Notes under the pieces: generated by a model | The model's input: only the letters and a program-made list of their open reading frames with translations | Databases searched by the model: none | Told to the model about the DNA's origin: nothing | In this document: piece by piece, positions 19,237 through 35,989 of the stretch | Numbering within the stretch: the first letter of the stretch is position 1 | Layout of the letters: every line of letters starts with the position of its first letter | Made by a program: the position numbers and the translations under genes | From: a bacterium | GTDB lineage: Bacteria; Patescibacteriota; Minisyncoccia; Phycocordibacterales; PALSA-1337 | Assembly: GCA_025355565.1 (NCBI GenBank) | Contig: JANXZK010000027.1 | Span: 1-35,989, forward strand | Length of the DNA: 35,989 nucleotides | Reading direction: 5' to 3'

Positions 19237-19274
19237 CCACTCAAAAATCCGCTTCCGCGGATTTTCTCGTGTGC
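19237..19274 (+). repeat. 38-bp direct repeat, left copy
   Basis: CCACTCAAAAATCCGCTTCCGCGGATTTTCTCGTGTGC, identical to 21772-21809; contains a 9-bp stem hairpin. Confidence 0.95.
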
Positions 19275-19280
19275 TCTAAT

Positions 19281-19441
19281 TATACACTTTGCGCGAACCT
19301 TTTTCGAGCGGAAACTGAACGAATGAATCAGCCCCGCCACCGCCTCGCAGAGCCTCGGCGGAATTTTCTAGCAAGAAAATATCCGTGACCTGGGGAATGA
19401 ATGCGGGCGGGTTTCGGATTCGCCAAATTTTTTCTGCGCCA
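19281..19441 (+). repeat. Left terminal inverted repeat of the Fic cassette (with ~49-bp extra segment)
   Basis: TATACACTTTGCGCGAACC...CCCGCCACC-[49 bp]-TGGGGAATGAATGCGGGCGGG...TTTCTGCGCCA matches the reverse complement of 21654-21765. Confidence 0.92.
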
Positions 19442-19452
19442 CAAATAAGAAT

Positions 19453-21384
19453 TTATTCCCTCAAATTCTTAACACTCACGATATGCCAACCAGAATGTAG
19501 AGCTGACCCTTCGGGAATATTAACGTAGATTCCTTCCTCGTCCTTAATAGTTCCAACACTTGCGCGAACAGCCTGTTCTGTTTGTTTTTGGATTGTCGCC
19601 AAAAAATCGGGGCTGGCGATTTCAAAAATATATTTGCGAGGTGCTGGCTGTTCGCTATCAACTCTCACAACTTTCTTTTCGCTATAATCTACCATTTTGT
19701 CGCTATAAAAAATTCCCTCCATAATTTGCTGGACAATTTCTTCTATCTTTTTTGATTTGACTTCAAATAATTTCATTCTCAATGATGAGCCATTTTCGCT
19801 GACATAATAAACCGACTGCGAAAACAGATCGTCCAAAAATCCTGAAATATCATCTTTGTCTTCTAAATACTCCTGCTTTGTAAAAGAGATTTCGTAATCT
19901 TTTGAGGTATCAAGTCTGTATTTGAAAACTTGAGAGTTATCTAAATGGCTTATCATCTTCGCGGCTGTATGATATTGCGAAAAGTATTCCAATAATTCTT
20001 TTTGTTTTCCTGCCACATAAGTATTTACCTGCTCTCTCGACACGGTAATGTTTGCATTTACTCGTTGAGAAAGATCAAAAAGAGAATCTGTTAAAATTTC
20101 TAGTTTTTGTTCATCCGTATATTGCTGACCCTCAAAACTTTTTTCTGCTTCAATAATTTGAGCGAGTTCTTGCGTTAGTTGTTGCAGAGCGTTTATTTCT
20201 TCCGCAGAAAAAGTTTTGTATTCACCATCGCTTTGATTGAACCTTTCTTTAATCAGATTCTCTTTTTGTTCAATTCGCGCCAACTCTCTTTCTTCTGCTT
20301 CCTGTCTCTCTTTTGCCACTCGGTCTTCTTCAGCAATTTCTTCGGCCTTTTCTTTCATTCTCAACTCAAAATAATCCTTGAGATAGATTTTTTGTCCCTC
20401 GTGTTCAATTTGATATTTCTCATTTTCGGGATGAGAAATACTATCGATCAAGATCTCGACATATTTTTTCTTCAATTCCTTGTAGGTTTGGAGAATTTGA
20501 CTTAGTCCCTCTTGTGTCAAATTTTTTGAAAGTAATTCAATGGGAACAGCTGCGCGTTCTGGAAATTTGCGAAGATATTTCTCTTTATCACCTTGTTGTT
20601 GTAAATACTGAAAAACGCTCAAAAACAAATATCGGCCATCTTTATCTAAAAGTTCGCCAAATAATTTTTGGTCTTCTTCCAAAATTTCGGCATCAAATTG
20701 AAAATCGCGTTTACTGCCGAAGAGGTTTGTAATTTTATCAGTGTTGATTTCAATATCTGTTACTCCGATTTCTTTTTCTATCAATTTGTTAATTTCATGT
20801 TGGATAAGTCCAGGATCAATATCCAATGTATCCCTACCGTCTCTGCTTAGCACTCCTTGTAATTCGGCTTTTGTTTCGTCATTAAACTCTTTAGTGAGCA
20901 GTGTATAAATTAGCCGACTCGTCCTACCATTTGCATCTAAATATGGGTGAATAGCGTTTAAGGATGACGAAACAAGTAATGCAACATCTCTCAAATCTTT
21001 TCCGCCCTGACTCATCTCTTTTGCAGAAGCCAAAACTTTAGCAAGTAAATCTGGCTTATCTTCTTGTCTTGGTGGAACATAACCTATTCCCGTCATGACT
21101 GCTTCTAGCGCAACAGTCTCTCCATCCATACCCCATTCGTCTTTCTTCTTACCGCGCAAGATTCCATTTACTCCGTCTAACAACTCAACAAATTCTGTTT
21201 CCTGTAGATTTTCAAGAAAAGTGCGTTTTTCTTTCTCGCTTGAAAATATATCTTCTATTTTTCTTCCATGAAACGGTTCAATATTTTCTGCCGTGCGTAA
21301 AAAACGCAAAAGGACTTCCGATCTTTTCTCTCGCTCAATAGCTTCTTCGTTTCTTGGGTTTTCTAAATTTAGACGTTCGCGCAT
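19453..21384 (-). CDS. Fic-domain protein
   Basis: HPYLDANGRTSR Fic motif; long C-terminal region. Confidence 0.85.
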   Translation of the reverse strand: MRERLNLENPRNEEAIEREKRSEVLLRFLRTAENIEPFHGRKIEDIFSSEKEKRTFLENLQETEFVELLDGVNGILRGKKKDEWGMDGETVALEAVMTGIGYVPPRQEDKPDLLAKVLASAKEMSQGGKDLRDVALLVSSSLNAIHPYLDANGRTSRLIYTLLTKEFNDETKAELQGVLSRDGRDTLDIDPGLIQHEINKLIEKEIGVTDIEINTDKITNLFGSKRDFQFDAEILEEDQKLFGELLDKDGRYLFLSVFQYLQQQGDKEKYLRKFPERAAVPIELLSKNLTQEGLSQILQTYKELKKKYVEILIDSISHPENEKYQIEHEGQKIYLKDYFELRMKEKAEEIAEEDRVAKERQEAEERELARIEQKENLIKERFNQSDGEYKTFSAEEINALQQLTQELAQIIEAEKSFEGQQYTDEQKLEILTDSLFDLSQRVNANITVSREQVNTYVAGKQKELLEYFSQYHTAAKMISHLDNSQVFKYRLDTSKDYEISFTKQEYLEDKDDISGFLDDLFSQSVYYVSENGSSLRMKLFEVKSKKIEEIVQQIMEGIFYSDKMVDYSEKKVVRVDSEQPAPRKYIFEIASPDFLATIQKQTEQAVRASVGTIKDEEGIYVNIPEGSALHSGWHIVSVKNLRE

Positions 21385-21388
21385 ATAT

Positions 21389-21595
21389 TTATTTTAAAAG
21401 CTCATCAACCGAAACATTAAGTGCACGAGCAATTTTTTCTACAACTGCAATAGTTACATTTTTCTTGCCACTTTCAATCGCACTCATATAACTTCTATCC
21501 ATATCAATTGCTCGACAAATGTCGCCTTGCGACATCTTACGGCGAAGCCGTATGCGCTTAATGTTTTGACCTAATGTTTTGGAAATTTGAGCCAT
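21389..21595 (-). CDS. XRE-family HTH protein, first cistron before fic
   Basis: LGQNIKRIRLRRKMSQGDICRAIDMDRSYMSAIESGKKNVTI. Confidence 0.88.
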   Translation of the reverse strand: MAQISKTLGQNIKRIRLRRKMSQGDICRAIDMDRSYMSAIESGKKNVTIAVVEKIARALNVSVDELLK

Positions 21596-21653
21596 ATCGT
21601 GATATCCACAGTTTAGCAGTTATTGCGCTTGTATTCCATATATGAATTTGTAT

Positions 21654-21765
21654 TGGCGCAGAAAAAATTTGGCGAATCCGAAACCCGCCCGCATTCATTC
21701 CCCAGGTGGCGGGACTGATTCATTCATTCAATTTCCGCTCGAAAAAGGTTCGCGCAAAGTGTATA
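21654..21765 (-). repeat. Right terminal inverted repeat of the Fic cassette
   Basis: Reverse complement of the left copy. Confidence 0.92.
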
Positions 21766-21771
21766 AATACA

Positions 21772-21809
21772 CCACTCAAAAATCCGCTTCCGCGGATTTT
21801 CTCGTGTGC
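21772..21809 (+). repeat. 38-bp direct repeat, right copy, overlapping the last 3 nt of tRNA-Tyr
   Basis: Identical to 19237-19274. Confidence 0.95.
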
Positions 21810-24896: not shown

Positions 24897-27800
24897 TTAT
24901 TTTGCGACTTTTACAGCCTCTTCGAACTGGATGGAGAGAAGTCTCGAGGCACCATCAGAACCCATAGTGACACCGTAGAGTACGCCGGCACGTGACATAG
25001 TTTCGCGGTTATGAGTGATCAAAATGAGTTGTGAATGTTTGGAGAGATCCTCGATCATGTCACTATATTTACGAGAATTCGCCTCGTCGAGCGCGGCATC
25101 TGTTTCATCTAGGATGATGAATGGCGGCGGATTTACCTGTGAGATCGCGAATAGGAGCGCGATCGAAGTGAGCGCACGCTCGCCGCCTGAGAGCATCATG
25201 AGGCCCTTTATCTTCTTGCGCGGCAGACTGACGTTCACGTCGAGTCCTTCTGGTAGATCTGCCCCTCCTTGTTCGGAGATGATCGCGTCGCTATCGCCAT
25301 CTAACAATTCGCTGAGCTCCCCCATATCTCCCTGCTTCTTTCTCCGCACTTCCTGTTTCACGACCAGGAGCTCCGCATGTCCACCACCGAACATCAGAGT
25401 AAAATATTTCTCAAATTCGCTGTTTATCTTCATGATACCGCTCTTGAATTCCAGATCTATGCGGGCATCGAGTTCGACGATGAGCTTCTGCAATTCGTGA
25501 GCCGCTTTCGAGAGATCCTCGAGCTCTCTCGCCAAGAACGCATCGCGCTCTTCTGTCTCACGATATTCCTTCATCACTTCCGCACCACCAGCCCCGCCGG
25601 AATCTTCGAGACGGACTTTGTTTCGCTCGATCTTCCTGCGTCGTTCTGATTGCTCCGAGCGTGAAGAAGGTATTCTGTCCAGAGCGTTAAAGTTAACAGC
25701 ATCACGTCCGACCAATATCCCCGCTTCGCCGAGATCTCTCTTGAACGACTCCTCTTCATGCGAAAGTGTCAGTTTGGCCGCGTTCAGAGTGTTGAATACG
25801 GCTCGAACTTCATTTTGCCTAGCGATGATCTTGAAGACATCCTTCTCCGCCTCACGATTTGTATCCTTCTCTTTTTCGATCGTGTCTTTGAGGTGACTGT
25901 ATTCGCGCGTCAGTTTCACTTCATCCGCAATCAATGACCGGATAACGCCCTCCGATTCGCCTTTCTCTTTGGTCAGAGTATCGATCTCCTTTTCCGCATC
26001 GCCTATCGATGCGGAATCATGCGAGGATCTATTCTTCGTAATGAACGCCCGCAGAGACGAAACTACTTCGCCGAATAAGCGCTTGACCTCGTCGATGGCG
26101 GTCAAATTTTCCATTTTGACTTTTCCATTTTCGATCTGCTTGACGATCTCCTCCACATCTTTCAGATATACTGTCTTCGACTCCTCATCCGTGATCCGTG
26201 ATCGCTCTTTTTCTATAGCGCGCTTGTTAGCCGCTATCTCACCTTCTAGACGTCCGAGCTCACGCATGACTGAGTCCTTATCCATTCGGGTTTTTGCTAG
26301 TCGACTTTCCAATCTGATCACTTCATCGCTCTTCGCATCCTTTCCTTTGGCGTCCGTCAGGATCTTCTTGGCATTTCCGAGCGCCCGATCGAGCTCTGCC
26401 AATTCTCTTTGCGGCCCGACGATATCCGCATCGAGGCGAGCTTTCTCCGATCTTAGATAATGTTCTTCCGCAGCAAAATACTCCTTGTACATAGCGATGA
26501 GCTCTTTGCGCAATTCCTCGACTTTCTCAACTTTCTCAACTTGCTTCTTTAGGAATCGGATATGTGGAGCGATCTCGCGGCGCAATGACTCCACTTGTTT
26601 TATATTCTCTTCCGTCCTCTCTAGTTTGCGCAGGCTTTCCGATTTCTTCCATTGATACAACTTGAGACCGAGCGCGTCTTCGATCATCTCGCGGCGCTCA
26701 CGGATGGATGCCGACAAGATGCGATCCGCCTCGCCCTGAGAGATGATGTGGTGGCCGCTAGCGCCGATATGTGCCGTTGCCAAGAGTTCGGCGATATCTT
26801 TCAACCGCACTTGGCTGCCATTTAACATGTACTCGTTCACATTGTCGCGATGAACCACACGCTCGATCGCCACTTCGTCAAAATCGATGCTCGGGAACAT
26901 CTTCCTAGTGTTATCAAAAGTCAGCTTGACGCTCGCCCTATTGCCTTTACCGGAACCGGACCCGACATCGCCACCACCATTCCAGATCATGTCTTCTCCT
27001 CGCTTCCCGCGCAATGACTTTATCGATTGCTCGCCCAATACGAAACGGAATGCCTCGGCGACGTTGCTATTATGAGCAAATATATTATTGGCAACAAAAT
27101 TATGATCGTGATCTACGGTGAGGTCATAGACATACCGCCCGGACGGAACCTCGCGTACCGAAACGATCTCATCCCACAGGACATCTGAGCTTGAAAACTT
27201 GCGAAGTCCGTTCGCACGTTGTCGCCAAGCATCGTTTGATACAGGAGCGACTGATTCTAGATAACTCACAACCCTGTCCACTCCTCCACGGCTCGGTAGA
27301 CAGCGTTTTTCATAATATGCGGCGAGTGTTGGATGTTCTTTGCGTACCTTTTTTACACTGACACCAGCGTCCTTGATCAACATATGCAATCGATCGAGAA
27401 TCCCGGGTATGAGATCATGATTGGGATTTCCCCTGCGCACATCCATATTCCGCATCGCTTTTACAGTGGCCGATTTCCTGCCTTTTGGCTGGATCCTTTC
27501 AGCAAAACTACGAATATTTGCATTGCCGTAAACATAGACTGACCAATATGGTCTGACTGTTTTTGTCGGCGAATTCGAAGCGTATTTATATTTTTTCTTT
27601 ATGTCAGAGAGTATTCCCAGTCGGAGAAGCAAGGTCGAAACTCCGCGCGCCAATTCTTCGCTGGCGCTGGCGTACTCTATATACGCCTGTCTCTTGCCCG
27701 TACTTTTCGATATCTTGAAACTAAAGTGTCCATCACCATCATATAGGGCGCCTAGAAATGCCTCGACTACATGATCGCGGGATTGGAATATCTGTGGCGG

Positions 27801-28865
27801 CACCTTCTTTGTTCGTGATGCCCCTTCGATCGTCATACCAAATATTTTGTCAAGCACGCGAGCGAGCGTTATAGAAAATATTATGACATCTTTTGTCTCA
27901 CCTTTGTAAGAAAAGACCTTTGCCTCCAAATCGAAACATTTGTGTACGCAAGATACGAAATCAGCTATGGAAGCCGGGTCATCGTTCACATACCGAACTT
28001 GACCATTTCGAGATGTCCTACCTTCGGCTATGATATACCCGAGAAAGCGGGCCAAATCCTCATCGACGTATTCAGGTATATTCATCGTCCCCTCACCTTT
28101 CGATTTCAATACACGGCTTGGATAGGTATGGATGTATGGCCCACAGAGAGCTGGAAGATATGTGACTGGCATAGCCTGAGTCATACGAACACGAGAAAAT
28201 GAACTCGTCGCCGAGCCAGAAACTCTCTCGAGTGCACTCGTAGTCGTAACTCCTCTCTCGAGCATTCGCAGATCGATGAGCTCCTCCAACATCGGATTAT
28301 ACGGGACATAGACGTTATCTTCCGACCTGAACGCAACGGCGACATCTTTCATCGATATCTGTTGCATCCGACCAACGATAGGTAGCGATCTTGGCGCAGC
28401 GATGCGTAAACCAGTCTTTACAGCATCAGCACGCACGGAGTGGACAGCACCATTCTCGCATACAAACAACGGATGATACGGTGTAGCGACTATAGTTCTT
28501 CCAGACCGCGTATTGATTTCCAACATCTCGTCTGGTGCCGTTCGACGGACAAATGCGGCGACATTGCGCCAATCTGTCTTTAAAGTATTCAGATTGAGTG
28601 CGGCAACCTTGAATGACACATTTGTATCGATGACAGCCATTCCATCATCGAACATCGTGACAGCCCGTGCGCGAGCTTGTGCCATGTCAAATAGTTCCTT
28701 GATCGGTTTAACAGAACCATCTTCGAGTTGGACCAACGTCCCACCGTCAACACACTTCCCTGAACCATTCGGACCCACTATTCCCGTGATCGGTGTATTA
28801 AATTGTAAATTCGCCTTTTTAGCGAATGATTTGAAACCAGAAAGTTCGAGGGACTTGAGATGCAT
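24897..28865 (-). CDS. smc: SMC-like chromosome segregation ATPase interrupted by an intein
   Basis: MHLKSLELSGFKSFA, GPNGSGK/SN Walker A, LSGGERALTSIALLFAI, FIILDETDAALDEAN. Confidence 0.92.
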   Translation of the reverse strand: MHLKSLELSGFKSFAKKANLQFNTPITGIVGPNGSGKCVDGGTLVQLEDGSVKPIKELFDMAQARARAVTMFDDGMAVIDTNVSFKVAALNLNTLKTDWRNVAAFVRRTAPDEMLEINTRSGRTIVATPYHPLFVCENGAVHSVRADAVKTGLRIAAPRSLPIVGRMQQISMKDVAVAFRSEDNVYVPYNPMLEELIDLRMLERGVTTTSALERVSGSATSSFSRVRMTQAMPVTYLPALCGPYIHTYPSRVLKSKGEGTMNIPEYVDEDLARFLGYIIAEGRTSRNGQVRYVNDDPASIADFVSCVHKCFDLEAKVFSYKGETKDVIIFSITLARVLDKIFGMTIEGASRTKKVPPQIFQSRDHVVEAFLGALYDGDGHFSFKISKSTGKRQAYIEYASASEELARGVSTLLLRLGILSDIKKKYKYASNSPTKTVRPYWSVYVYGNANIRSFAERIQPKGRKSATVKAMRNMDVRRGNPNHDLIPGILDRLHMLIKDAGVSVKKVRKEHPTLAAYYEKRCLPSRGGVDRVVSYLESVAPVSNDAWRQRANGLRKFSSSDVLWDEIVSVREVPSGRYVYDLTVDHDHNFVANNIFAHNSNVAEAFRFVLGEQSIKSLRGKRGEDMIWNGGGDVGSGSGKGNRASVKLTFDNTRKMFPSIDFDEVAIERVVHRDNVNEYMLNGSQVRLKDIAELLATAHIGASGHHIISQGEADRILSASIRERREMIEDALGLKLYQWKKSESLRKLERTEENIKQVESLRREIAPHIRFLKKQVEKVEKVEELRKELIAMYKEYFAAEEHYLRSEKARLDADIVGPQRELAELDRALGNAKKILTDAKGKDAKSDEVIRLESRLAKTRMDKDSVMRELGRLEGEIAANKRAIEKERSRITDEESKTVYLKDVEEIVKQIENGKVKMENLTAIDEVKRLFGEVVSSLRAFITKNRSSHDSASIGDAEKEIDTLTKEKGESEGVIRSLIADEVKLTREYSHLKDTIEKEKDTNREAEKDVFKIIARQNEVRAVFNTLNAAKLTLSHEEESFKRDLGEAGILVGRDAVNFNALDRIPSSRSEQSERRRKIERNKVRLEDSGGAGGAEVMKEYRETEERDAFLARELEDLSKAAHELQKLIVELDARIDLEFKSGIMKINSEFEKYFTLMFGGGHAELLVVKQEVRRKKQGDMGELSELLDGDSDAIISEQGGADLPEGLDVNVSLPRKKIKGLMMLSGGERALTSIALLFAISQVNPPPFIILDETDAALDEANSRKYSDMIEDLSKHSQLILITHNRETMSRAGVLYGVTMGSDGASRLLSIQFEEAVKVAK
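27069..28754 (-). mobile_element. Intein with LAGLIDADG-type homing endonuclease (562 aa) within SMC
   Basis: Begins CVDGGTLVQLEDGSVKPIKEL, TPYHPLF block B, FLGYIIAEG and FLGALYDGDG motifs, ends VYDLTVDHDHNFVANNIFAHN before Ser. Confidence 0.95.
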
Positions 28866-32049: not shown

Positions 32050-32134
32050 GCCGGGGTGGCGAAATTGGTAGACGCACGTGGCTTAGGACCACGCGAAGCA
32101 ATTCATGGAGGTTCGAGTCCTCTCCCCGGCACCA
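32050..32134 (+). tRNA. tRNA-Leu(UAG)
   Basis: GCCGGGGTGGCGAAATTGGTAGACGC..CTTAGGA..GGTTCGAGTCCTCTCCCCGGCACCA. Confidence 0.95.
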
Positions 32135-33681
32135 GTAGTAACTTGTTCGGAATTAAGAATATGGAGCGATTTTGCGGAAGCCAAAATCGTGCTTTGATTT
32201 TCGCCAAAACCCTTTCCGCCTACGGCGGAAGCCGTGAAATCCCATAATTCCCCCCAGCGTATGGAAACCGTTTTGTCCTTGATTTCAGGGTTAGAGCCGA
32301 TTTTCTGAAAAAACTTCTTCCATTCTAAATGATTGGAAGTTTTTTCTAAATCGACCGCTTGTTTCAAGGACAAAACGAAACTCCGCAAGGGTTCGACCCA
32401 ATTCTTTCTCTGTTGTCCAAAATTTGTTTTTGATTCGAGCAAACCCACCTTTTCACGCATGAGCAGGTCTTTGCGTGCGAGATACATTTCTCGTTCAATA
32501 TCGCCGTCAAGAAAAACTGAAACGAGTTTATTCAGTTTTTCTTCGTTTGCTCGAATCTTTTCCTTCAAATTTTGGGCAACACTTCCTTTTTCAGAAATTG
32601 ATTCGTTTTCCCATAGAGTTATCTGTTTGTCCATTTCTTCAATTTCAGAAAAAGGAAGCGACACTGATTGAAGCAGTGTTTGCAATTGTGTGGCGAGTAT
32701 CTTTTCTTGCGTATACGGCTGTGCGCACTTTCCATTTTTCTTGGTGCAACGATAGTAGGTGTAGCGCGTACCAAAGCGATTGGTCGCATATTGCGCCGTA
32801 ATCGCACAGCCGCACTCGCCACATTTTGCAAACCCCGTAAACACGAACGGAAGCGCAACTTTGGACTTTCTCGGTTTCTTGCGCGAAGTGAGCACTTTTT
32901 GAACTGCTTCAAACAGTGTCGGAGAAAGAATTGGCTCAAAGTTTCCGTTGTGCCATTCACCACGATGCTTGATAAAGCCGAGATATGCTCTGTTGGTCAA
33001 CATTTTCACAACGGAAACTTTGGCAAGTGGCGTTCCTTTTTTCTGCACAACGCCGTAATCTGCCAAAAAATCCGCTAATGATTTGAGCGTATGCGTTCCC
33101 GTGGTGTATTCTTCAAACGCTCGCTTGATAATACGAGACTTCACTTTGTCTGGTTCAATATTTTTCGTTTTCAAATTGTTCACATAACCGAACGGAGCGA
33201 GCGTTAGCCACTCACCACGGCGGATTTTTTGGCGGATTCCACGCTTTACATTTTCAACAAGGTTGTCAGAAAAATATTTAGACTGTCCGAACGCCACTTG
33301 CAACATGAATTTGCCTTGCGGAGTTGGCTCAAACCAAAACTGCGGAAAGCGTAAAGAAGCAATTCTGTTGATGTCTACTAGATATATTATTTTTCCACCA
33401 TCAACAGAATTACGGGCGAGACGGTCGGGGTGCCATGCCAAAATTCCTAAAGGTTCAGTAGAGTTTTCAATATACTCAATCATTTTGGCAAAACCGTCTC
33501 GCCCGGGCTTCTTTGCGCTTTTCGCTTCCGTAAATACTTTTACGATTTCAATGCGTTCTCTGCGAGCAAATTCCTGTAACTCAAACAGTTGAGCTTCAAT
33601 ACTCATCACTTGCTTGTCATCTTCCTCGGTGCTCTTGCGAGCATAGAGAACGCATTTAGTTTTGGTTTGAGTTGTTTCCAT
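32083..33681 (-). CDS. Large serine recombinase (resolvase + recombinase + zinc ribbon)
   Basis: METTQTKTKCVLYARKSTEEDDKQVMSIEAQ, HPDRLARN, CGECGCAITAQY..RTYYRC; start placed at 33681, C-terminus reads antisense into tRNA-Leu. Confidence 0.92.
   Translation of the reverse strand: METTQTKTKCVLYARKSTEEDDKQVMSIEAQLFELQEFARRERIEIVKVFTEAKSAKKPGRDGFAKMIEYIENSTEPLGILAWHPDRLARNSVDGGKIIYLVDINRIASLRFPQFWFEPTPQGKFMLQVAFGQSKYFSDNLVENVKRGIRQKIRRGEWLTLAPFGYVNNLKTKNIEPDKVKSRIIKRAFEEYTTGTHTLKSLADFLADYGVVQKKGTPLAKVSVVKMLTNRAYLGFIKHRGEWHNGNFEPILSPTLFEAVQKVLTSRKKPRKSKVALPFVFTGFAKCGECGCAITAQYATNRFGTRYTYYRCTKKNGKCAQPYTQEKILATQLQTLLQSVSLPFSEIEEMDKQITLWENESISEKGSVAQNLKEKIRANEEKLNKLVSVFLDGDIEREMYLARKDLLMREKVGLLESKTNFGQQRKNWVEPLRSFVLSLKQAVDLEKTSNHLEWKKFFQKIGSNPEIKDKTVSIRWGELWDFTASAVGGKGFGENQSTILASAKSLHILNSEQVTTGAGERTRTSMNCFAWS
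32129..32268 (+). repeat. 140-bp inverted repeat, left arm of recombinase element
   Basis: GCACCAGTAGTAACTTGTTCGGAATTA...CCCCCCAGCGTATGGAAAC, matches the reverse complement of 33674-33813. Confidence 0.93.
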
Positions 33682-33813
33682 ACGCTGGGGGGAATTATGG
33701 GATTTCACGGCTTCCGCCGTAGGCGGAAAGGGTTTTGAAAAAATTGACAGCGCGATTTTGACTTCTGCAAAATCGCTCCATATTCCTAATTCCGAACAAG
33801 TTACTACTGGTGC
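33674..33813 (-). repeat. 140-bp inverted repeat, right arm, containing the recombinase start codon
   Basis: Reverse complement matches 32129-32268 with scattered mismatches. Confidence 0.93.
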
Positions 33814-33820
33814 TGTAATC

Positions 33821-33865
33821 ATACACTTTGCGCGAACCTTTTTCGAGCGGAAACTGAACGAATGA
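33821..33865 (+). repeat. 45-bp end motif shared with the Fic cassette
   Basis: ATACACTTTGCGCGAACCTTTTTCGAGCGGAAACTGAACGAATGA identical to 19282-19326; inverted copy with two mismatches at 21720-21764. Confidence 0.95.
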
Positions 33866-33997
33866 GCGCGCCTCGTCCGCTCCCTTCGGTCGCGGTACAA
33901 AACCAAAAATTTTCCTTCCTTTCTTTAGATTTTCGGCGGGTGTGGGGGGAGCCGACAAAAAATAGAAAGGAAATTTTTGGTTTTGATTCGCCGCTTC
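33866..33997 (+). repeat. ~132-bp inverted repeat, left arm of the XRE-Hint cassette
   Basis: GCGCGCCTCGTCCGCTCC..GGTCGCGGTACAAAACCAAAAATTTTCC...GATTCGCCGCTTC matches the reverse complement of 35772-35906. Confidence 0.93.
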
Positions 33998-34020
33998 CAT
34001 ACTTGAATTATAGTACAAGA

Positions 34021-34049
34021 TTGTTTGAAAGTGCAATATCTCGTATGCT
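34021..34049 (+). promoter_or_regulatory. Sigma70-type promoter giving a leaderless XRE mRNA
   Basis: TTGTTT - 17 nt - TATGCT, then 6 nt to ATG at 34056. Confidence 0.55.
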
Positions 34050-34055
34050 ATGATT

Positions 34056-34259
34056 ATGTTGATAAGTAAAAGGTTAGGTCAGAATATTAAGAAAATACGG
34101 ACAAGTAAAGGAATGTCGCAAGGCGATATTTGCCGAGCGCTTAATATGGACAGGGGCTATATGAGTGCTATTGAAAATGGGAAGAAAAATATTACCATTC
34201 AGCAATTAGAAAGATTGGCAAAAGCGCTTGGAGTGCCGGTGGATAAATTATTAAAATGA
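34056..34259 (+). CDS. XRE-family HTH protein, first cistron before the PKD-Hint gene
   Basis: MLISKRLGQNIKKIRTSKGMSQGDICRALNMDRGYMSAIENGKKNITI; about two thirds identical by eye to 21389-21595. Confidence 0.88.
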   Translation: MLISKRLGQNIKKIRTSKGMSQGDICRALNMDRGYMSAIENGKKNITIQQLERLAKALGVPVDKLLK

Positions 34260-35464
34260 GAGTATTATATAAGTATATGAAAAACTTACAAAAAGGTTTT
34301 GTCATCCCAATTCTTTTGGTCATTGTCGCTTTATTGGTGGTAGGTGGTGGCGTGTACATTTATGAGAATAAAAAAGCAGAAACGCCTGTCGTTATTGATA
34401 ATACTCAAACTCCACCGCCAGTTGTCACGCCAAGCCCCAATCCAACACCCACACCTACACCTACACCAAGTCCTACTCCCAAACCTTCCCCGACACCAAC
34501 TCCGATACCAATTCCGCAATCTTTCAGATTCGGAGCTTCACCAATGTCCGGGGCACCACCACTGAACGTATCTATCGGCGCATTTTCATCCGATCCATTG
34601 CCTTTTGATGACTTCACAATTGATTATGGCGATGGTTCCCATAATTCTTTGCAACAGCAATGTTTTGAGCCATCTGGCGCGGATCGAATTTGTCAGATAA
34701 GAACAGAGCACAACTACACGTCCTCTGGCACATTCGCGGCTACGTTACGCGGAATCAAGAAAGGCAACTCGCAAATTCTTGGTACGCTGAAAATTGCTGT
34801 TGGTAATCCATTAACGGTAATTAAAACAATCGGAGAAAAGGAAAGTTCCTTTTTGATACAAAAAATTAACCGCGATAGTGTTGATGGCCTTTGGTCCCAA
34901 GCGTACCCAGTTGCAACAGAAGAAGGTACCCCTAAGACTTTACGTATCGGGGATGATATAGGATATGGATGCGAAGGTGTATCAGATAAACTTACAAGCA
35001 TTGATTTTTCTGGACAGCGAGTAACATTTACTAAATCTTGGCAGAAAGCACCTTACGGCGGATGTCCAATTTGTCTTTCAAGTAAGACACTCATTGACAC
35101 GCCTTATGGATTGGTACTTGTAAAAGATCTAAAAGCTGGTATGCCAATTTGGACATCCGATAAATCCGGTCACCGTGTCTCTGGAATTGTTGAGAAAACT
35201 TCGAGAGTTCCTGTACCGCCCACACATCAGATGGTCCATTTAATTCTTGGTGATGGACGAGAATTATTTGTCTCTCCTCCACATCCAACTATTGATGGAC
35301 GCACAGTCGGAGATCTTGTTGTTAACGAACTTTATGATGGTGCGCGCATAGTTTCGTCCGAGCGAGTGTCTTATGATGATGTTGCGACCTACGACATTTT
35401 GCCATCCGGTGAAACCGGATTCTATTGGGCAAACGGTATTCTTATGGGTAGTACGCTCCGCTAA
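34256..35464 (+). CDS. Membrane-anchored protein: TM, Pro/Thr-rich stalk, PKD-like domain, C-terminal Hint domain
   Basis: KGFVIPILLVIVALLVVGGG; (PT)n linker; FTIDYGDGS..HNYTSSGTFAATL; CLSSKTLIDTPYGLVLVKDLKAGMPIWT...TYDILPSGETGFYWANGILMGSTL. Confidence 0.85.
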   Translation: MRVLYKYMKNLQKGFVIPILLVIVALLVVGGGVYIYENKKAETPVVIDNTQTPPPVVTPSPNPTPTPTPTPSPTPKPSPTPTPIPIPQSFRFGASPMSGAPPLNVSIGAFSSDPLPFDDFTIDYGDGSHNSLQQQCFEPSGADRICQIRTEHNYTSSGTFAATLRGIKKGNSQILGTLKIAVGNPLTVIKTIGEKESSFLIQKINRDSVDGLWSQAYPVATEEGTPKTLRIGDDIGYGCEGVSDKLTSIDFSGQRVTFTKSWQKAPYGGCPICLSSKTLIDTPYGLVLVKDLKAGMPIWTSDKSGHRVSGIVEKTSRVPVPPTHQMVHLILGDGRELFVSPPHPTIDGRTVGDLVVNELYDGARIVSSERVSYDDVATYDILPSGETGFYWANGILMGSTLR

Positions 35465-35510
35465 TAGCCACCAAGAAAAACTTGAAAATTATTCCTTGGT
35501 TGTGGGAGCA

Positions 35511-35551
35511 ATCCCTGCCGTTTTATAATTTTTCCTAAAAACGGCGGGGAT
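35511..35551 (+). terminator. Strong hairpin downstream of the PKD-Hint gene
   Basis: ATCCCTGCCGTTTT / AAAACGGCGGGGAT, 14-bp stem with one G-T pair. Confidence 0.65.
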
Positions 35552-35771
35552 TTGTGCGCGCACTGGGCAGGTGGGGCAAGCACATACAGATTTGCTTGTG
35601 CCTCGCACAATCCATATTCTTTGAGTTACCACTGCACTCTGTCGAAGGCACAGAGTTTCAAGCTACTACCAAACACCGAGAGGAAGCGCCTCGTCTCGCC
35701 GCAAGGACGGAGAAATGAACAATCTTAAACAATCACAAGGTGATATAATGAAAATGTTCATTTCGTAGTCT

Positions 35772-35906
35772 GAAGCGGCGAATCAAAACCAAAAATTTCC
35801 TTTCCATTTTTTGTCGGCTCCCCCCACACCCCCCGCCGAAAATCTAAAGAAAGGAAGGAAAATTTTTGGTTTTGTACCGCGACCGAATGGAGCGGACGAG
35901 GCGCGC
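35772..35906 (-). repeat. ~135-bp inverted repeat, right arm of the XRE-Hint cassette
   Basis: Reverse complement matches 33866-33997. Confidence 0.93.
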
Positions 35907-35989
35907 ATCATTCCGCATCAGGATTGTTTTGAAAAAAGGTTCGGATTTTGTTCAGAATACACAGCACTGTGAGTAAATTAGCTTCTTCG

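Follow-up and report, generated by a model that had tools for sequence, protein, structure and literature searches.

The 3' end of a tRNA-Leu gene on contig JANXZK010000027.1 abuts a serine recombinase gene that is boxed by two long inverted arms, and the question raised by this locus is what, exactly, was inserted there. The initial annotation had offered two answers, a minimal recombinase-only element or an invertible segment that could flip the gene between antisense and sense relative to tRNA-Leu. Based on the whole stretch of DNA analysed (the window, 35,989 nt; all coordinates are window positions on this contig, and G000 denotes the window's own genome), positions 32129-35967 are probably an integrated mobile element of ~3.8 kb, composed of a recombinase half and a cargo half and placed at the tRNA-Leu acceptor end.

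The two arms of the recombinase unit, termed A' and A (Table 1), are 140 nt each, 93% complementary and 1405 nt apart. Both inner edges read CAGCGTATGGAAAC and both outer edges read GCACCA, which bears out what the initial annotation had reported. It was likewise right that the arms hold the start codon of the recombinase and the 3' end of tRNA-Leu, that the tRNA end is involved and that a large serine recombinase does not usually have arms of this length: the start lies in the right arm, and the reading frame continues antisense into tRNA-Leu(tag) and ends inside it. The left arm codes for the recombinase tail from about residue 471, directly past the part conserved in the family. In the 532-aa protein, Pfam PF00239 (Resolvase), PF07508 (Recombinase) and PF13408 (Zn_ribbon_recom) all scored above cut-off, and the ARKS and DRLARN motifs and four Cys residues are invariant in 18 relatives. 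By these domains and the catalytic Ser and Arg motifs, it is a large serine recombinase/integrase. A second inverted-repeat unit (33814-35963), with arms B and B', adjoins the right arm of the recombinase unit; it codes for a regulator of XRE type and a protein with a Hint-like domain. At its far end ATACACA is followed by GCAC, which brings the copies of the core GCAC to three, one at the tRNA, one in inverted form where the two units meet and one at this far end.

Table 1. Features of the element and of its tRNA-Leu target in the window (HTH, helix-turn-helix).
Feature	Position	Strand	Remark	Basis
tRNA-Leu(tag)	32050-32134	+	integration target; T-loop GTTC 18 bp ahead of arm	ARAGORN, Rfam tRNA, spacing
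Arm A' (attL side)	32129-32268	+	opens with tRNA discriminator/CCA end; opposite strand is the recombinase C-terminal tail	
Large serine recombinase, intact, 532 aa	33681-32086; feature span 32083-33681	-	stop codon within tRNA-Leu	
Arm A	33674-33813	-	inverted copy of A' (93%); holds recombinase start codon	
Internal attP-like site	33789-33838	-	B end GGTTCGCGCAAAGTGTATGATTACA, core GCAC, A end CAGTAGTAACTTGTTCGGAAT	
Arm B (near), cargo unit's outer end	33814-33997	-	1 mismatch against the genome's B-end consensus	
Cargo: XRE-type HTH protein, 69 aa	34050-34259	+		
Cargo: 402-aa protein	34256-35464	+	C-terminal Hint-like domain just under Pfam cut-off	
Arm B' (far)	35772-35963	+	repeats B in inverted orientation; 142-nt core stretch at 95.8%	
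attR: distal GCAC core plus 22 bp of displaced flank	35964-35989	+	contig end	

The architecture recurs widely. A scan of genome contigs gave 77 loci from many Patescibacteria groups, and in a search of the whole class 126 of 384 sampled genomes, about one third, proved to have homologues; 40 regions with long flanks were taken from these, including two one-contig genomes (G289 and G318). A arms were present in 82 of the 88 loci with enough sequence on both sides and in 82 of the 84 intact relatives (about 40-95% identity), with 29 at exactly 100% arm identity; the arm-less loci mostly have truncated or broken recombinase genes. Control windows of the same geometry showed arms in 10 of 1297 cases, a difference that excludes chance as the source of the arms. 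Inverted chimeras can arise in metagenome assembly, but the arms in the window differ at ~10 sites and the same pattern recurs in many independent assemblies, G289 and G318 among them. This recurrence refutes a chimeric inverted duplication, the probability of which we take to be negligible. The outer edge of the arm at the recombinase C-terminus is the 3' end of a tRNA on the opposite strand in 71 loci, and 16 tRNA identities are represented there (Leu, Glu, Ala, Ser, Arg, Lys, Ile, Gly, Val, Pro, Asn, Thr, Phe, Tyr, Met and Cys). The predicted C-termini across the family are peptides antisense to tRNA genes (such as GERTRTS and GGIEPPTP; for example, window 32083-32128), and the C-terminus thus varies with the insertion site. 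The B unit was seen in 22 of the 31 loci that have at least 5 kb upstream.

Where both ends of a locus are visible, attL, the far end and, in inverted form, the internal junction all show the same 3-8 nt of the tRNA end, and in L019, L028 and L163 the terminator hairpin expected after the tRNA sits beyond the far end. The tRNA and the far flank of the single-contig genome G289 (L163) were joined and searched in its genus. In a sister species of that genus (G416), tRNA and flank are contiguous and 69% identical over 735 nt, and the tRNA match stops at GGGGCCA, the exact position of the 6.24-kb element of G289. The far-end cores and this empty site together indicate that the mobile unit is the recombinase half plus the cargo half. 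Read in this way, attL and attR appear to derive from attP and attB, and a relative keeps the empty site, as would be expected for a serine-integrase integrative element. A recombinase-only insertion sequence with long terminal inverted repeats has in its favour that A, recombinase and A' form a self-contained inverted-repeat unit; however, the cores that bound this unit are inverted rather than direct, the cargo unit separates it from the displaced flank, and the G416 site is restored only by removing both halves. An insertion sequence of this type was rejected because the inserted unit is both halves jointly and not one inverted-repeat unit, and we regard it as highly improbable. The minimal recombinase-only element of the initial annotation thus gives way to a larger one, with direct copies of the tRNA-end core at its two ends.

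Then, does the recombinase flip its own gene between the arms and so switch expression relative to tRNA-Leu? Arms that are perfect or near-perfect in many loci would suit such a phase-variable segment, and so would a few contigs (L009, L031, L068, L080 and L196) in which the recombinase is sense after the tRNA; but every one of these contigs is ambiguous, as it ends within the element, where identical arms confuse assembly. The recombinase is antisense to the tRNA, with its C-terminal arm on the tRNA, in 71 loci, L016 has tRNAs on both sides, and ~3/4 of the cargo open reading frames (ORFs) also share one orientation. Phase switching is not supported by the orientation counts and is very unlikely. 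The initial annotation had itself named two outcomes that would speak against its proposals, a single orientation throughout and relatives whose recombinase lacks inverted arms. Essentially one orientation was seen, but the second outcome was not, since nearly all intact relatives carry the arms.

How could one enzyme address so many tRNA genes? The T-loop GTTC of the target tRNA begins 18 bp ahead of the arm in 48 of 62 loci, whereas in the internal junction the GTTC at the B end starts 23-24 bp ahead of the same point (47 of 62 loci), with a mirrored GAA or CGGAA at the corresponding distance on the A side. In serine integrases, the distance of the zinc-ribbon motif from the centre is 5 bp greater in attP than in attB (Rutherford et al., PMC3783163). 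The difference between 18 and 23-24 bp matches this shift, which suggests that the internal junction is attP and that the tRNA T-loop and acceptor end are the attB half; the attP motif would then stand ~5 bp further out, as is characteristic of serine integrase elements. GTTCRA is common to nearly all tRNAs, and this would explain the wide range of targets. A TATAAT at the B end was also considered as a universal recombinase promoter. It is limited to the window's own clade, whereas the GTTCG motif is general, and for this reason it was not relied on.

We propose that the recombinase would insert the element between the tRNA-Leu acceptor end and the original downstream flank. The tRNA would act as attB, its T-loop GTTCRA serving as the zinc-ribbon motif at attB spacing, and the GTTCG of attP would stand 5-6 bp further out. 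Starting at the tRNA, one passes the core, A', the antisense recombinase, A and the inverted core, and then B, the cargo, B', a further core copy and the displaced flank; the recombinase half and the cargo half are each enclosed by an inverted repeat of their own. Because each half is so bounded, the circular form that we infer would hold the attP site (B, core, A) twice, as identical copies that point in opposite directions. Integration would proceed through the attP at the recombinase C-terminus, and the other attP would stay intact inside the integrated element. L017 and L134 are hybrids that pair A arms of unlike type (an Ala-type arm at attL and a Leu-type internal arm in L017), so that the two att copies can differ in specificity. 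L016, a recombinase unit without cargo between two convergent tRNA-Leu genes, is possibly the product expected from recombination of the internal attP with a second tRNA attB. A circle of this design resembles the yeast 2-micron plasmid in topology, with two unique halves, two inverted repeats that carry recombination sites and a recombinase in one half (PMC3147054), and two inverted att copies might accordingly amplify copy number by flipping during replication. Against such an amplifying plasmid, no replication gene was present among the cargo halves and proteins examined, the orientation is fixed instead of randomised, and attP is normally not recombined with attP by serine integrases (PMC3783163). 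We disfavour it and see only a slight chance that it applies.

Several observations weigh against an integrated two-half element that moves as a circle. P0001 and the family alignment were searched against IMG/VR, as was the attP pattern, and phage and plasmid records were searched at the protein level; nothing above ~30% was found in phages or plasmids, IMG/VR gave only five distant matches, and these viral, phage and plasmid collections yielded neither a circular form nor an excision junction. An excision factor was not identified. The second inverted repeat was not found in 9 of the 31 loci with at least 5 kb upstream. Two equally active attP sites should give the two orientations equally, and the ratio observed is 71:1. 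All sequences are metagenome-assembled genomes (MAGs) or genome assemblies, and many contigs break at these repeats; in G417, for example, two contigs terminate within identical B arms. The window copy itself appears decayed (93% arms). Finally, the displaced flanks show no shared motif in the flank half of attB, so that specificity seems to be carried by the tRNA side.

Arm identity calls for an explanation of its own. It is uniform at 96-99% along the length of the arms and falls to ~22% just beyond both ends, and the near-identity of the arms spans 100-390 bp, beyond what an att site requires. The inner arm boundaries are conserved while the arm sequences diverge, which indicates that the duplication is old and that the arms are kept alike. 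Gene conversion driven by the inverted repeats seems the most likely means and is favoured over single-strand pairing or amplification. In the case of pairing, the arms of the same element would fold as single-stranded DNA during uptake or replication, A with A' and B with B', forming a double-stranded attP from one strand, and mismatch repair would keep the arms identical. The extent of the identity, well beyond a 50-bp att site and ending sharply, fits this idea, as do the lasting inner boundaries and an internal hairpin that was seen by eye in each arm. Serine integrases, however, cut both strands, so that recombination of a folded strand would leave hairpin ends, and the single-stranded phase is without direct evidence; we consider folding improbable. 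A shared age of the A and B arms, as in long terminal repeats, was also tried and rejected, the correlation of their identities being weak (rho 0.29, p 0.11, n 30).

The cargo looks like an accessory gene pool. Restriction-modification systems are found in L163, L164 and L191, and other loci carry a PemK-like toxin (L019), an ArsP permease (L052), a D-Ala-D-Ala ligase (L200), a sodium symporter (L169), a glycosyltransferase (L175), GH43 and SET proteins (L187) and a HIT protein (L049). A second element appears to be stacked beyond the far end in L049 and L052. The window also holds a cargo unit without a recombinase at tRNA-Tyr (19275-21771), which encodes a 643-aa Fic protein and an XRE regulator and has the same B ends with 1 mismatch each in 25; perhaps it was moved in trans. 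This unit is flanked by a 38-bp exact direct repeat with a terminator-like hairpin (19237-21809).

Further traces were noted in the same genome and beyond. At L004:1501-1609 (G000 contig C11:47685-47793), the ~25 nt that open an A arm come after tRNA-Leu(gag), with transposase-like genes next; this is probably the scar of an earlier element. At the end of G000 contig C27 (L127:4762-5132), a third B end with a perfect 25-mer runs off the contig and marks a further element of G000. The copy at tRNA-Met in L051 is disrupted but has 100% arms; it lies on a 252-kb contig binned as Deltaproteobacteria, reflecting either transfer beyond Patescibacteria or misbinning. One of the five distant IMG/VR matches is a contig of 4598 bases (L213), in which both the recombinase and a restriction-modification system seem to lie between the arms, possibly a one-unit variant. 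Units of ~150-180 bp stand 3' of tRNA-Leu(tag) in the relatives L085, L086, L093, L094, L097, L102, L103 and L106; each closes with 18-22 nt that repeat the tRNA 3' end exactly, and they comprise at least two sequence types, some of which can form a long stem, and in an Rfam search of them only tRNAs were matched. Similar tRNA-end repeats occur in G000 at tRNA-Ser (C9) and tRNA-Arg (C3). Elsewhere in the window (24897-28865), an SMC-like ORF is apparently interrupted at its P-loop (GPNGSGK/S) by an intein-like insert.

Taken more broadly, the family might represent a modular cassette system of Patescibacteria that has not been described, although we put this forward only tentatively. A recombinase module would be combined with an exchangeable cargo module, the self-complementary arms would be re-homogenised in each mobility cycle, and the inverted attP pair would let one T-loop-reading enzyme deliver, stack and swap cargo at many tRNAs and mobilise cargo units that lack a recombinase. 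Reading the universal T-loop at attB spacing offers a sequence-level account of how one integrase may use many tRNA genes, and it could yield a serine integrase with unusually broad and predictable landing sites. Its presence in 126 of 384 genomes of a reduced, mostly uncultured class, with restriction-modification, toxin and transporter cargo, makes it plausible that the element is a main way in which this class gains genes. Two features, inverted arms that match each other and an att site that persists within the integrated element, raise a well-defined question that can be tested, and the elements break MAG assemblies at tRNA genes.

A search of openly available papers found no description of such an architecture, and several known systems share parts of it. 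The Ccr recombinases of SCCmec have cassette-like cargo and a weak profile similarity to the present enzyme, but its scores of 93, 79 and 51 bits are far below the curated CcrA, CcrB and CcrC cut-offs of 900, 700 and 900, which argues against membership. We know of no tRNA targeting or arms in SCCmec. Integron cassettes are similar by analogy, being small, varied and exchangeable cargo with little else. Integrons differ, however, in using a tyrosine recombinase, attC hairpins and arrays at attI, whereas here a serine recombinase, tRNAs and usually one cargo unit per recombinase are found. The large serine integrases of the A118/LI, Bxb1 and phiC31 type share the domain order, the catalytic and zinc-ribbon residues and the ~5-bp shift between attP and attB. 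Their phages have one attP and a unique attB site; the present element appears to keep an inverted second attP inside, and its attB would be a motif common to all tRNAs. The yeast 2-micron plasmid also has halves split by inverted repeats bearing recombination sites (PMC3147054), but it is an autonomous plasmid with a tyrosine recombinase and without tRNA integration. The nearest described elements are the ssrA islands of Dehalococcoides (DsiB, PMC3146451), in which a serine recombinase on the reverse strand sits beside attL at an RNA gene's 3' end, the cargo is variable and several islands are stacked at one site. These islands use one target and a six-gene module with a second small recombinase, and a text search of that report gave no mention of inverted repeats. 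In contrast, the present element uses many tRNAs at the acceptor end, consists of recombinase and cargo only, and has both halves enclosed in inverted repeats.
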